DNA of 43,135 bases from a virus. Positions within the stretch are counted from its first letter, which is position 1. Each line of letters starts with the position of its first letter. A program made the position numbers and the translations under genes. The notes under the pieces are model-generated. The model did no database searches, was not told the DNA's origin, and saw nothing but the letters and a program-made list of their open reading frames with translations. Location of the stretch: positions 1 to 43,135 of the IMG/VR virus record IMGVR_UViG_3300043395_001623; one strand, given 5' to 3'. This document shows, one piece after another, positions 4,423 through 41,476 of this stretch.

Positions 4423-4432
4423 TATATTTATA
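4423..4432 (+). promoter_or_regulatory. Late-promoter box TATATTTATA
   Basis: A perfect copy directly after a terminator and 17 nt before the ATG at 4450. Confidence 0.65.
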
Positions 4433-25810: not shown

Positions 25811-26809
25811 ATGGTTTATGATGTTTATTACACTACTGGCGGAGGTCCGTGGGTAAATGCTGGTTCTGATACATGGGTAAATTTATGGATGGAATTGGTT
25901 GCACCTAAATTAGATGTAAAACCCATTCTTTTAATTCATAGAAACAAACCCAAAGGTCACGAAGATTACGAATTTCCGATTGAAACTTATTGGCATGGTG
26001 AAAATATTGAAAAATTTGAAGAATTGTGTAAAGGTGCACGAAGAATCAATATTTTACACGGTCATTATACTCCTATGAAGTGTATTGTAGATAATAAAGA
26101 TAAAATACATTCAAATGTTTTACATAATTCAGTAGACCACATTCTAAAATCACAAGTTTTAACCGATGCATCATTAGGTTGGCACCCATATTTAAGTTCA
26201 GAGTGGGAAAAGGAAGTAAATGAATGGTCATCTAATACAATTTGGGTAGGATTGTTTGATATTTTGTTTCCAAATCAAAATATTAAAAATTTTTACGAAT
26301 TTAAACATAATTCACCCCTTTCAAATTCTATAAATTTAGGATTTGCATCGAGATGTGAAGGTAGAAAGAATCCACATTATTTAGATGGATTAAAATCTTT
26401 CATTTTTACTGATTCTCATGAATTTAACGCAATATGGAAAGGTGGAGTGAAGGTAGATACTTCTAAATCAAAAATATATCACTATAAATCAGAATTTAAA
26501 GACATATTCTATAATATGGATTGGGGAATATCACATTCCGCATTTACATCCGAACCATTTGGATATGGTATATTTGAAGCAGTGGATAGAGGTAAATTAC
26601 CAATAATTCACAAACTTTATATGAAAGATTTAGAATATCCATATAGAGCTTCATCTAAAAAGGAATTTGTTGATATTTATAATAGGATTTCTAGTGAATC
26701 TTACGAAACTAAACAAATTTGGTTTAATAAACTAAAAGAGTATATGATAGAAAACTTTACCAATAAAAATAAATGGGTAAACGATTTATTAAATATTTAT
26801 AATACATAG
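25811..26809 (+). CDS. GT-B (family 4-like) glycosyltransferase inside the tail gene cluster
   Basis: The 332-residue protein has an N-terminal half with Gly-rich YYTTGGGPWVNAGSDTW and a C-terminal half containing SEPFGYGIFEAVDRGKLPII. There E248 and E256 form the EX7E motif of retaining GT-B enzymes, and the following Gly-Lys-Leu-Pro corresponds to the donor-binding loop. HGHYTPMKCI and the ring of His/Trp residues in the middle are consistent with an acceptor cleft. It starts seven bases after the last fibre gene and stops 13 bases before the Hint protein, so it is co-expressed with Ser/Thr-rich virion proteins. Modification of fibres is the natural guess; host-surface modification is the alternative. 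Confidence 0.7.
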   Translation: MVYDVYYTTGGGPWVNAGSDTWVNLWMELVAPKLDVKPILLIHRNKPKGHEDYEFPIETYWHGENIEKFEELCKGARRINILHGHYTPMKCIVDNKDKIHSNVLHNSVDHILKSQVLTDASLGWHPYLSSEWEKEVNEWSSNTIWVGLFDILFPNQNIKNFYEFKHNSPLSNSINLGFASRCEGRKNPHYLDGLKSFIFTDSHEFNAIWKGGVKVDTSKSKIYHYKSEFKDIFYNMDWGISHSAFTSEPFGYGIFEAVDRGKLPIIHKLYMKDLEYPYRASSKKEFVDIYNRISSESYETKQIWFNKLKEYMIENFTNKNKWVNDLLNIYNT

Positions 26810-26822
26810 GAGAAAAACAATT

Positions 26823-28106
26823 ATGGCAGCATCATCAGGCGATACTTTATCACTTTACAATTTAGCTGGAGCAACTGGTAATTCACTTACCAATATTTCA
26901 TTGGGTGCAATTAAAGGAACACCAGCAGGAGGTGATAATATTTCGTTAGGAAATGATTTTCATATCACTGCAGTTGGTTCATCAACATCTGATATTACTG
27001 GTTATTCATATGCGGTAGAAGGTACATCTGAATCTTATACGGTTAATATGCAAAACGCTGGTAGTAGATTTGCTAGTAAAATTGGTAACAGAGCAGCTAA
27101 CTTCACTTGGTCAGTACCGGCAGGAACAAAAATATCGGTAGGAACTAATAGTGGTGGTAGTGCTACATTTAGTGTTGGTTCAATTACAAACGCACCAACT
27201 CAAACTGTTTTACAAGCAGTAGAAGCACATACAATTAGAGTAATATTCGCAGATGGTTTTAATGACCATGCAACAAGATATAACACAAACATCCAAAGAA
27301 CGGTTTATTCAGTAGATTCGTATGATGGAAACTCTGCTGCACTTTGTTTAACAATTGATTCTCCTGTTATTTTAGCAGATGGAACAATTGTAGAGGCAGG
27401 TGATTTAAATGAAGGAGATAAATTAAAAGGATTCTCAATCGGTGGATTAGGAACTGATTCTGATGGAACATTTTTAGAATGGGCATCATCTGATTTATCA
27501 AAAACTGAAAAAGATGTAACTATCGTTAATTTAACTTATTCTTTCGCATCTCGTTATTATGATATAAATGGTGGTGAGATTACTGCAACTGCAGAACACC
27601 CTATGTTAGTAAAAGATTCAGTAGATGGTACATATCGTTTTAAGGAAATGTTTAATTTAGTAACTGGTGATAAATTAGTTAAAGGTGATGGTACTGAAGT
27701 TGAAATCACATCAATCGAAATCGTACAAAAAACAACCGAAATTGTTTCAATTGATGTTGAAGAAGAAGATACATATATGGTAAATGGATATATTACTCAC
27801 AATAAAGGTGGTAATTCATTCAGTAACTTCGCAGGACCAAGTGCACCAACAGTAACTGGATATAGTTCACCAATGATTAACTGGACTGCACCTGCTAAAA
27901 CTTTAACTGCAGGTATTACTGCTTATCAATATCAAATAGCATCTGATTCCGGGTTTGCAACAATTGTAAATACTGCAGATGAATGGAGTACAACCCAAGT
28001 GGAAGTAAATACTATATTATCGGCAGGTACATACTACTTTAGAGTAAGAGCAATTGAGGCAGGTTTAAAGGGAAGTTGGTCATCTACTTTAACATTTACT
28101 AGATAA
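26823..28106 (+). CDS. Virion-like protein with an internal Hint (intein-like) domain and a C-terminal fibronectin III domain
   Basis: Residues 1-174 are a beta-rich N-domain. The Hint domain runs from C175 (CLTIDSPVILADGTIVEAGDL) to H326-N327 (YMVNGYITHN), with the block B TxxH motif in ITATAEHPMLV. At about 153 residues it has no room for a homing endonuclease. The residue after the final Asn is Lys (HNKGG), not Cys, Ser or Thr, so normal splicing should fail, while N-terminal thioester formation and Asn cyclisation could still cut the chain, as in bacterial intein-like domains. Residues about 338-427 look like fibronectin III (SAPTVTGYSSPMINWTAP...YYFRVRAIEAG). An AGGAGA Shine-Dalgarno precedes the ATG. 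The N- and C-domain roles are inferred. Confidence 0.8.
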   Translation: MAASSGDTLSLYNLAGATGNSLTNISLGAIKGTPAGGDNISLGNDFHITAVGSSTSDITGYSYAVEGTSESYTVNMQNAGSRFASKIGNRAANFTWSVPAGTKISVGTNSGGSATFSVGSITNAPTQTVLQAVEAHTIRVIFADGFNDHATRYNTNIQRTVYSVDSYDGNSAALCLTIDSPVILADGTIVEAGDLNEGDKLKGFSIGGLGTDSDGTFLEWASSDLSKTEKDVTIVNLTYSFASRYYDINGGEITATAEHPMLVKDSVDGTYRFKEMFNLVTGDKLVKGDGTEVEITSIEIVQKTTEIVSIDVEEEDTYMVNGYITHNKGGNSFSNFAGPSAPTVTGYSSPMINWTAPAKTLTAGITAYQYQIASDSGFATIVNTADEWSTTQVEVNTILSAGTYYFRVRAIEAGLKGSWSSTLTFTR

Positions 28107-28176: not shown

Positions 28177-28449
28177 ATGGTAGAACAAATTAAGTTTACG
28201 GATGAGGAAATTGCTGAAATTAACAAATTAAGAGAAGAATTTACTCAAATTTTTATTCAATTGGGACAAATTAGTTTGGATAGAAAAACTAAAATGAATG
28301 AATTGGATGTTTTGGAATCTCAATTAGTAGAATCTCATTCTAAATTAATCGAAAGAGAGGAAATTATATTCAAATCATTGAATGAAAAATATGGTGATGG
28401 TGATTATGACCCAAACACCGGTATTTTTACCCCAATTACACAAAACTAA
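28177..28449 (+). CDS. Small coiled-coil phage protein (90 residues)
   Basis: The product is almost entirely charged helix (KFTDEEIAEINKLREEF...LDRKTKMNELDVLESQLVE) with heptad-like spacing of Ile and Leu, ending in a short KYGDGDYDPNTGIFTP tail. I recall proteins of this plan (two helices, then K-Y-G-x-G-x-x-D-x-x-T-G) in many T4-like phages, without a known function. It sits alone between two late boxes just before the sheath gene, so it may be a tail chaperone or a minor component. No Shine-Dalgarno is present, unlike the sheath and tube genes. Confidence 0.65.
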   Translation: MVEQIKFTDEEIAEINKLREEFTQIFIQLGQISLDRKTKMNELDVLESQLVESHSKLIEREEIIFKSLNEKYGDGDYDPNTGIFTPITQN

Positions 28450-28546: not shown

Positions 28547-30862
28547 ATGGCAGAAAAGATTGTATCACCAGGTGTATTTACAAGAGAGAATGACCTTTCT
28601 TACTTATCACAAGGTATTGGAGAAATCGGAGCAGCAGTTATTGGCCCTTTCGCTAAAGGACCTGCATTCGTACCAACCGTTGTAAACACACAATCAGAAT
28701 TCGAATCTATATTCGGTGTACCTAATGGAGATTACTACACAGGATATACCGTACAAAACTATTTAAGAGAGGCCGGAGCAGTAACAATTGTAAGAGTTGG
28801 TCACGTTGGTGGTTATACTCAACAAGATGCAGTAGGTATCACTATCTATAATCCAGAAACAGAAGAAACTAAATTAGTGAGTGTTTTAAAATCAACTCAC
28901 AATTGGACAACTGATGGAAATGGTGATTCTATTGAAGCAACAATAGATGCACAACCGTCAGCATCAGTATTCAATCTTTCATTAGCAGGTTCAGATTCTG
29001 CATATGATACTACAATATCTGCATCAGTTTTACATACTGCAGGTAATGATTTATCAGATGTATTTGGTGAATCACCAAGAGGTAAGAAAGGTGTTTATGC
29101 ATCTCAATTCTTTGAGAACGCAGCAGTTGATTTCTTTAGTGCAGCAGATGGGTGTGAAGTTTCTGTTATTAATTTAGGTGAACAATCATTTGCAGGTCAA
29201 GATGTTACTTATGCATCTACTCCTTGGATTCAATCACAACTAATTTCTGGTGAAAGAAGTAATTTATTCCGTTTACACACATTAGGTGATGGAACATACA
29301 CAAATAAAGAATTTAAAGTATCAATCTTTAATGTAAAAGCAGCAGGTGAATCAAACGCAACTGATTATGCTACATTCTCATTAGCAATTAGAGGATTTGC
29401 TGATACTGATAAGAAAAAATCAATATTAGAAACATATAACAATGTTAATTTAGACCCTGCATCTCCAAACTATATCTTAAAGGTAATTGGTGATAGAAAT
29501 GTAGAAATTGATGCTAATGGTAAACAATTTGAAAATGGTGATTATGCAAATCGTTCTAAATTAGTTAGAGTTGAAGTTGCACCAGAAGGTTCATTCCCAA
29601 TCATCGCAGGACCATTTGGACATGAAGCATATTTATCTCCAATTGCAGGAAATGATGAAATCACACCAGCAGTTGTATTTACAACTAATTCTGATAATAA
29701 CACATCATCTTCTACATATAGATATTCTGGTATCGATTTAGAATCTTCAGTTGTTAAAATTGATAATGGCCATTTCTTAGCTCCAATTCCAAACGAAGCA
29801 GGAAATGGAACAAATACTGCATTTGCATTTGATTCTCAATTAGATTATGAACTAACTGGTTCTGATTCAACTGATGTTGCTAAAAGACAATTTGTAGTTG
29901 GTTTTCAAGGTGGATTTGATGGTGTAACACCAACGGTATCTATTGATAAAGGTACTGATATTTCTTCTGGTAACTCACAAGGATTTGATTTATCATCATC
30001 TACTGCAAGTGGTTCAGTTGCATATGTAAAAGCAATTAATTCAGTATCTAATCCTGATGATTTTGATATTAATTTAGTATCTGCACCAGGTATTGTAAGA
30101 TATCACCACTCTTATGTATTTGATAAGATTATTGATATGGTAGAATCTCGTGAAGATGCATTCTTCATCGGTGATGTAGTAGGACCTGCAGAAGGACAAG
30201 ACCAAGCAGTAGAGCAGGCACAAGCAGTAGATTCTAACTATGTTGGTACTTACTATCCATGGGTTAAAACAATCGATTCTAGAACAAATAAATTAACTGC
30301 AGTTCCACCATCAGTATTGATGCCAGGAATCTATGCAGCGAATGATGCTACTGCAGCTGAATGGTTTGCACCAGCAGGTTTGAACAGAGGTGGTATTGTC
30401 GGAGCAGTTTCAGTATTAGACAGATTAACACATTCTGAAAGAGATTACTTATATGAGAATAAAGTAAATCCAATCGCTTCTTTCCCTGGTGAGGGTATCG
30501 TGGCATTTGGACAGAAAACTTTACAAGATAAAGCATCTGCATTAGATAGAATCAATGTAAGAAGATTATTGATTAAAGTTAAAAAGTATATTGCTTCAAC
30601 ATCAAGATATTTAGTGTTCGAACAAAATACTGCTTCAACTCGTTCAAGATTCTTAAACACAGTAAATCCTTATTTGGAAGCAATTCAACAAAGACAAGGT
30701 CTATATGCTTTCAAAGTGGTAATGGATGAATCTAACAATACACCAGATGTAATTGATAGAAACATATTAGCAGGTTCAATTTACTTACAACCTACTAAAA
30801 CTGCTGAATTCATCGTAATTGACTTCAACATCTTACCAACTGGGGCATCATTTACAGCGTAA
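28547..30862 (+). CDS. gp18: Tail sheath protein, T4 gp18-like
   Basis: The 771-residue protein starts MAEKIVSPGVFTRENDLSYLSQ and continues AAVIGPFAKGPAFVPTVVNTQSEFESIFG, the standard sheath N-terminus. The C-terminal region has the conserved core RLLIKVKKYIASTSRYLVFEQNT and the closing strand ILAGSIYLQPTKTAEFIVIDFN that links subunits in a contracted sheath. T4 gp18 is 659 residues, so there is extra outer-domain material (about 130-500). A strong AGGAG Shine-Dalgarno and a late box fit one of the most abundant virion proteins. It is followed by the tube gene as in T4. Confidence 0.95.
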   Translation: MAEKIVSPGVFTRENDLSYLSQGIGEIGAAVIGPFAKGPAFVPTVVNTQSEFESIFGVPNGDYYTGYTVQNYLREAGAVTIVRVGHVGGYTQQDAVGITIYNPETEETKLVSVLKSTHNWTTDGNGDSIEATIDAQPSASVFNLSLAGSDSAYDTTISASVLHTAGNDLSDVFGESPRGKKGVYASQFFENAAVDFFSAADGCEVSVINLGEQSFAGQDVTYASTPWIQSQLISGERSNLFRLHTLGDGTYTNKEFKVSIFNVKAAGESNATDYATFSLAIRGFADTDKKKSILETYNNVNLDPASPNYILKVIGDRNVEIDANGKQFENGDYANRSKLVRVEVAPEGSFPIIAGPFGHEAYLSPIAGNDEITPAVVFTTNSDNNTSSSTYRYSGIDLESSVVKIDNGHFLAPIPNEAGNGTNTAFAFDSQLDYELTGSDSTDVAKRQFVVGFQGGFDGVTPTVSIDKGTDISSGNSQGFDLSSSTASGSVAYVKAINSVSNPDDFDINLVSAPGIVRYHHSYVFDKIIDMVESREDAFFIGDVVGPAEGQDQAVEQAQAVDSNYVGTYYPWVKTIDSRTNKLTAVPPSVLMPGIYAANDATAAEWFAPAGLNRGGIVGAVSVLDRLTHSERDYLYENKVNPIASFPGEGIVAFGQKTLQDKASALDRINVRRLLIKVKKYIASTSRYLVFEQNTASTRSRFLNTVNPYLEAIQQRQGLYAFKVVMDESNNTPDVIDRNILAGSIYLQPTKTAEFIVIDFNILPTGASFTA

Positions 30863-40693: not shown

Positions 40694-41476
40694 ATGAGTA
40701 ATTTTAAACATTTATCAGATTTAGAAATCCAACAAATGACCTTCGATTGGAGATATAGAGGTTGGACGGTATTTCAATTACTTACCGAAGAGGAATGTGA
40801 TGAAATAAATGAAGAAATGGAACGATTGAGACAAGAGCGTTCTAAAACCACCAAAGAAGGTGGTGAACAATGGGGAGAGTGGGACCCTTTCGCATATCCA
40901 CATAAAATTTCATCAAAATTAGAGAAATTATTTGCACATCCAAAATTGATTGAAGCTATGGAATTCCTTATGGAAGGTGATATAGTTGGAATGCAAACTT
41001 GGGCGTACTTTAAACCACCAGGGCAATTAGGTAGAGACCAACATCAAAATGCTTTCTATACAGGATGTGGTCATAATGAAATTATCAATACTGCATTGGC
41101 ATTAGATAATCATGATGAATCAAATGGTGCAGTATGGAACTATGAAGGTTCGCATAGATTGCCTGTTTTACCAATTGAAGTGGATGAGGAAAGAACAAAA
41201 ACTAATCCAACATTTTGGAGAAATGAAAGAGGTAAACCTTGTGTAATGCCAGAAGGACACGATTTCCAAAAAATACAAGGAAATCTTCGTAAAGGCGAAG
41301 TAGTTCTTTTACATTCACACACAGTACATGGTTCAGAACCAAATAACTCTAATAGATTCAGAAGAAACTTTTTAGGAGGTTATTTGAAGAAAGGAGCCCA
41401 TTTCAATCAGGGTAATCATATGAAAAGAGAACCAATTGATATATACGAATTAAGAGAAAAACATTGGGGAGAATAA
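40694..41476 (+). CDS. Phytanoyl-CoA dioxygenase (PhyH)-like 2-oxoglutarate/Fe(II) oxygenase
   Basis: The 260-residue protein follows the PhyH plan: an N-terminal GWTVFQLLTEEECDEINEEME helix, MQTWAYFKPPG, then GRDQHQNAFY, ALALDNHDESNGAVWNYEGSH, and the distal LLHSHTVHGSEPNNSNRFRR. The last provides H212 and an arginine (R223 or R224) for 2-oxoglutarate. The first motif, normally HxD, reads H117-Q-N119, so one iron ligand is Asn instead of Asp. The enzyme may be active with an altered centre, use another nearby acid, or be inactive. Family members hydroxylate small molecules or protein side chains. It has its own late box but no Shine-Dalgarno, and a terminator follows. The substrate is unknown. 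Confidence 0.8.
   Translation: MSNFKHLSDLEIQQMTFDWRYRGWTVFQLLTEEECDEINEEMERLRQERSKTTKEGGEQWGEWDPFAYPHKISSKLEKLFAHPKLIEAMEFLMEGDIVGMQTWAYFKPPGQLGRDQHQNAFYTGCGHNEIINTALALDNHDESNGAVWNYEGSHRLPVLPIEVDEERTKTNPTFWRNERGKPCVMPEGHDFQKIQGNLRKGEVVLLHSHTVHGSEPNNSNRFRRNFLGGYLKKGAHFNQGNHMKREPIDIYELREKHWGE

Follow-up and report, generated by a model that had tools for sequence, protein, structure and literature searches.

A family of proteins in uncultured T4-like phages carries a permanent Hint domain that retains its full set of catalytic motifs and is always followed by a lysine. We propose, with moderate confidence, that the Hint domain of the 427-residue protein studied here is an active type-A bacterial intein-like (BIL) domain, fixed in a protein of the phage structural region, and that the following residue, Lys328, takes part in its reaction, most likely as an amine acceptor.

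Protein architecture and gene neighbourhood

The window, i.e. the whole stretch of 43,135 nucleotides that was analysed, is an IMG/VR virus fragment (43 kb) from the part of a T4-like phage genome that encodes structural proteins. Tail fibre genes with an S74 chaperone end are followed by the Hint gene (26823–28106, + strand; taken from the open reading frame list, homologues found), a gene for a 90-residue protein (28177–28449, +), the tail sheath gene (28547–30862, +) and the tail tube gene. The closest cultured relatives of the window's sheath were those of Microcystis phage Mel-JY01 and Flavobacterium phage immuto. In a neighbourhood comparison, the 90-residue gene and the sheath gene were conserved downstream in 212/216 and 214/216 loci with enough sequence, respectively, and glycosyltransferase-like and fibre genes were present upstream in 80–83 of 84 loci, the loci overlapping in part since the same contigs were counted more than once. 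The 90-residue gene lay immediately upstream of the sheath gene, including in cultured relatives without a Hint gene. The glycosyltransferase-like gene (window 25811–26809) had no family match and lay 5' of the Hint gene in 83/84 loci. Elsewhere among the tail genes, the stretch 40694–41476 weakly matched chlorinating or hydroxylating dioxygenases.

The motif TATTTATA is located 21 nt 5' of the ATG of the Hint gene (26794–26801, +), and the same motif occurs in immuto. It was found at window positions 4425, 12461, 13014, 16831, 26794, 28135, 28496, 31473 and 40665, on the + strand and 17–45 nt (once 106 nt) from the starts of structural-region genes. The window held 19 copies of it on the + strand versus 2 of TATAAATA. 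In immuto it stood 18–30 nt 5' of six genes, including sheath, tube and neighbouring genes, and it may act as a late promoter element in these phages. The original prediction had described the Hint protein as late and structural in type, which is borne out in part by its position beside fibre, sheath and tube genes and by this upstream motif.

The N-domain (residues 1–174; 26823–27344, +) was beta-rich and, in the survey of open reading frames, always accompanied by Hint. Modelled alone, it gave many beta strands with a pLDDT of 86, and no solved structure matched it at E < 0.001. It closes with a conserved linker, VDSYDGNSAAL (27312–27344, +; from the alignment and the model), whose last residue is Leu174. 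The Hint domain itself comprised 153 residues and lacked a homing endonuclease. As originally predicted, an intact Hint domain was present at 27345–27803 (+), which corresponds exactly to residues 175–327, and the profile and fold searches agreed. The NCBIfam profile TIGR01445 (intein_Nterm) matched with 27.1 bits (cut-off 24.5) in an alignment starting at residue 175, Pfam PT-HINT (PF07591) scored 27.9 bits, just above its cut-off of 27.7, and a weak match to Pfam Intein_splicing ended at residue 327; Foldseek likewise recovered Hint structures. Behind it lie a flexible linker, KGGNSFSNFAGPSA (27804–27845, +), seen in the alignment and the model, and an FN3-like C-terminal domain (about residues 342–427; 27846–28103, +). 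The latter was apparent in the model and matched Pfam fn3 with E = 1.8e-4, just under the cut-off, so the predicted placement of Hint between a beta N-domain and a fibronectin III domain held up. The AlphaFold2 model of the full protein, built on the family alignment, had a pLDDT of 80 and low-confidence stretches at residues 124–130, 167–173 and 329–336. Since the last two of these flank Hint, both of its junctions appear to lie in flexible linkers.

Fixation of the domain and invariance of the lysine

The protein family was a fixed component of uncultured T4-like phages. Viral sequences were scanned with exact DNA patterns, and the resulting counts are therefore samples. The whole-protein scan yielded 69 loci, and the scans based on the Hint and N-domain alignments at least 80 loci each. 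Hint was present in all 223 open reading frames with an N-domain (the window plus the matches listed). A search with the N-domain alignment for relatives of this domain that lack Hint found none among the best 80 of 230 matches; it used two scan patterns, one of which adjoins the junction. The C-terminal part always consisted of one FN3-like unit of 98–111 residues. Among 28 representatives, the N-domains shared a mean pairwise identity of 54%, the Hints 60% and the C-terminal parts 46%, with minima of 33%, 32% and 18%, respectively. The co-occurrence of N-domain and Hint, the single C-terminal unit and the fixed synteny indicate that Hint is a permanent part of the protein and not a mobile intein. 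No full-length relative was found in cultured phages or in a search of bacterial genomes. Around the sheath gene of immuto, Mel-JY01 and the uncultured phage LR756508, we found the sheath and a gene resembling that of the 90-residue protein but neither N-domain nor Hint, indicating that the Hint protein is not essential to the tail.

The catalytic residues were conserved throughout the family. These were the block A residue Cys175 (27345–27347, +), the predicted thioester-forming nucleophile; the block B motif TAEH (residues 256–259; 27588–27599, +), in which E258 and H259 were invariant and the first residue was T, S or N; Asp311 at position 4 of block F (F:4; 27753–27755, +), a block whose role has been described (PMC4031507); and His326-Asn327 (27798–27803, +), the predicted site of Asn cyclisation. 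Together with Lys328 at +1 (27804–27806, +), the residues C175, E258, H259, D311, H326 and N327 were unchanged in 24/24 diverse relatives, and the catalytic positions were all invariant in relatives down to 40% identity. In line with the original prediction, no canonical nucleophile followed Asn327. The +1 residue was lysine in 112/112 distinct Hint junction sequences (codons AAA 104, AAG 8), and +2 was mostly glycine (Gly 108, Glu 3, Asp 1). Entropy was zero at K328, and the adjoining linker varied. The lysine had previously been read as the mark of a missing acceptor; its invariance in 112 distinct relatives and its recurrence in unrelated viral Hints identify it instead as a conserved part of the system.

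This recurrence was observed in several scans. A scan for HN-Lys-Gly gave 37 loci, about thirty of which were Hints with flanks unrelated to the window family. As that scan had itself selected lysine, scans with a free +1 position were also run. The pattern YxANG-xxx-HN recovered Cys 96, Ser 7, Thr 5, Lys 7, Ala 1 and Phe 1 at +1. Among the Hint-like matches to NGxxVHNxG, +1 was Cys, Ser or Thr in 80, Gly in 3 and Lys in 2, and lysine is therefore not universal at this position. Where a canonical nucleophile is absent, lysine is the commonest, but not the sole, +1 residue in the viral Hints sampled. The sharpest pattern came from Hints followed by a single residue (ANGxxxHN-x-stop; 31 loci): 29 ended in lysine and one in cysteine, and one was a spurious 14-residue frame, which leaves lysine in 29/30 credible loci. 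The lysine tails fell into 12 clusters at 70% identity and used both Lys codons, and lysine was the last residue in 19% of open reading frames in the same loci. A control scan for ANGxxxHN-stop returned no credible Hint ending at HN, its one match being a spurious 19-residue frame. Together, the two scans indicate that Asn is not the last residue of such viral Hints and that a one-residue tail, where present, is lysine. Where lysine is the only tail residue, it cannot serve a C-terminal part. An acidobacterial control for +1 residues gave 8 matches, mostly canonical inteins and one with lysine, which is too few to call Lys +1 viral.

Hints with Lys +1 were found in tail proteins (a central tail fibre, L247, and a tail protein, L379), and also in DUF4815 proteins, glycine-rich proteins and tandem Hint arrays. 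The arrays were viral proteins with at least two tandem Hints joined by short, often Pro/Gly-rich linkers and ending in HN-Lys-stop (L273, L301, L356, L498, L500–L504, L506–L516, L518–L520, L522 and L524); they are a phage counterpart to poly-BIL arrays. Several C-terminal viral Hints (L365, L379, L383, L232, L240, L071 and L493) carried runs of glycine directly ahead of the Cys (GGGGGG|C), reminiscent of how ubiquitin-type conjugation partners end in glycine.

In a tree of 63 Hints, the window family formed one clade (100/100). A supported enclosing clade (100/96) joined it with Hints of phage NCTB (Ala at +1), an Erwinia phage (Thr), LR756508 (Lys) and contigs with Phe, Thr, Ala or Lys. Lysine is thus not essential to the Hint fold, as +1 is A, T, F or K in the family's nearest relatives. 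The lysine label required at least five changes over the starred branches, a count made uncertain by long branches and Lys-selected sampling.

Predicted reaction and alternative explanations

All that Cys175 and Asn327 need is kept under strong constraint, so both should act, and we regard active self-processing of the window Hint as highly probable. We are equally confident that selection maintains Lys +1 for its part in the Hint reaction; being kept independently of a C-terminal part, it most likely takes part in that reaction. By analogy with the family, Cys175 would take over the N-domain as a thioester. Asn327 would then cyclise and free the FN3 part, now starting with Lys328. The thioester would most likely be attacked by an amine of Lys328, either the alpha-amine that Asn cyclisation releases or, directly, the side-chain amine. 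Some N-domain would in this way be rejoined to the FN3 part, and the remainder would stay cleaved, giving fragments of 174, 153 and 100 residues.

The simplest chemical role for Lys +1 is that of amine acceptor, with precedents in the free-amine route proposed for type-A BILs and in the lysine acceptors reported for BIL2. We nevertheless put forward Lys328 as the acyl acceptor only tentatively. A Hint with lysine as its sole tail residue would ligate only a lysine, and the BIL2 analogy is weakened by the location of BIL2's own acceptor lysine elsewhere than at +1. Lys +1 could instead tune Asn cyclisation or the first step. A generalisation, which we consider possible but doubtful, is a widespread viral class of Hints in which Lys +1 replaces Cys, Ser or Thr as a dedicated acyl acceptor, an amide or isopeptide to lysine being formed and Hint released. 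If so, the window N-domain would be welded to the FN3 domain or to another virion subunit, and poly-Hint proteins ending in HN-Lys-stop would keep a lysine on their N-terminal part. Were Lys +1 to accept, phages would possess a fourth +1 splicing chemistry besides Cys, Ser and Thr, and an ATP-free means of joining virion proteins covalently. Even if it is no acceptor, its retention across unrelated viral Hints, and as the sole residue behind HN, is a strong clue to the function of Hints without a +1 nucleophile.

The original prediction was that the domain should cleave but not splice. The presence of all block A, B and G residues and the lack of a +1 nucleophile speak for this, but type-A BILs also splice, and the claim was too strong as worded. 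Lack of a +1 Cys, Ser or Thr does not forbid splicing, because in type-A BILs the freed amine can attack the thioester (PMC4031507). For the same reason, correct splicing despite the lysine, once named as an outcome that would overturn the prediction, is one expected product of the type-A BIL class. A reading confined to cleavage, in which thioester hydrolysis and Asn cyclisation free the N-domain and the FN3 domain and Lys +1 sets the rate of C-terminal cleavage or limits splicing, is somewhat unlikely in our estimation. It accords with the intact cleavage residues, with the flexible linkers at both junctions and with the mostly cleaved products of published type-A BILs (PMC4031507). It gives no account of why lysine specifically is kept, least of all in the 29 of 30 credible one-residue tails, where C-terminal cleavage frees just a lysine. 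Self-cleavage and covalent transfer had both been considered possible at the outset, and both are plausible. Transfer to a lysine amine has been reported for Tetrahymena BIL2, the closest solved relative (PMC8616854). Transfer in trans would pass the N-domain from the Cys175 thioester to a lysine or the N-terminus of another virion protein, for example the sheath, a fibre or the 90-residue protein, with FN3 guiding contact and the virion becoming cross-linked. The conserved flexible linker ending at Leu174, the constant adjacency of the 90-residue and sheath genes and the reported conjugation of the BIL2 N-flank to different substrates via Lys isopeptides (PMC8616854) would suit such a transfer. 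We still judge it quite improbable: immuto and Mel-JY01 have sheath, tube and the 90-residue gene, yet their sheath-gene regions contain neither N-domain nor Hint, and, with no full-length relative in cultured phages, no partner seems to need the Hint protein.

Some Hint-fold domains may function without splicing, which counts in favour of a Hint that is catalytically inactive and retained as a structural spacer. A spacer needs none of the Cys, block B His, block F Asp, His-Asn and Lys that stay invariant while Hint identity falls to 32%, and this explanation is very improbable. The matches to TIGR01445 and Intein_splicing would be expected of an ordinary class 1 intein that recently lost its +1 nucleophile. 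However, Lys +1 is old and invariant, an endonuclease is absent, no intein-free allele occurred among the 223 open reading frames (matches listed), and the flanks are two separate domains, not one split protein. Such an origin is scarcely credible, and the ordinary intein was rejected on the missing intein-free alleles and the invariant Lys +1. A pretoxin was also rejected, as there is no toxin part and an FN3-like domain follows Hint.

Comparison with known Hint systems

By sequence and by fold, the window Hint is nearest to BIL domains. The best Foldseek matches of the Hint domain were Tetrahymena BUBL1 BIL2 (TM 0.78 on target) and a Clostridium thermocellum BIL (0.80), followed by inteins, and BIL2 also ranked first in the sequence profile search. 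Type-A BILs end in HN without a +1 nucleophile, and splice weakly, with cleavage products dominating; their proposed route proceeds from thioester formation via Asn cyclisation to a final step in which the newly free amine attacks the thioester (PMC4031507). The window Hint has every sequence feature by which type-A BILs are defined, namely the Hint fold, block A Cys, block B TxxH, block G, the HN end and no Cys, Ser or Thr at +1. The described bacterial type-A BILs occur in hypervariable regions of non-conserved proteins (PMC7765530), a setting unlike that of the window family with its fixed architecture and synteny. We filed the window Hint as a type-A BIL variant, because the hypervariable setting is a habit of the bacterial members and not their chemistry. 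The Clostridium thermocellum BIL (2lwy) shares with it the Hint fold, a length of about 150 residues, the Cys start and HN end, the lack of a +1 Cys, Ser or Thr and the lack of a homing endonuclease. Type-A BILs differ in that the window Hint resides in a fixed phage structural-region protein of one architecture, not in a hypervariable bacterial protein, and in that its family always has lysine at +1.

Class 1 inteins have Cys, Ser or Thr at +1, where the window family has lysine, and are known by intein-free forms of the host protein, which the collection scans did not reveal among 223 N-domain frames. Pretoxin Hints (PF07591) resemble the window domain in profile, its score lying just over the cut-off, and differ in the C-terminal part, which is FN3-like in the window protein and not a toxin. 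In named records, the nearest Hint relatives were those of jumbo phage NCTB, of Erwinia, Dickeya and Yersinia phages and of LR756508, most of them located in proteins with a tail or virion-structural annotation. Their Hints are C-terminal, with 2–10 residues after HN in those read, whereas an FN3-like domain follows in the window protein, and their +1 residue is Ala, Thr or Lys.

BIL2 of Tetrahymena thermophila BUBL1 (6y75, 6tmm), the top match by profile and fold, lies, like the window Hint, between two independent domains. These are ubiquitin-like in BUBL1, in contrast to the N-domain and FN3-like domain of the phage protein. BIL2 is also characterised by zinc activation and a zinc site (His48/His125). 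According to its structure providers, BIL2 forms an isopeptide bond with the side chain of a lysine and dispenses its N-flank to different substrates (PMC8616854). The solved BIL2 construct has Met after the mutated HN, so that its acceptor lysine must be located elsewhere than at +1, whereas the window family carries lysine at precisely this position.
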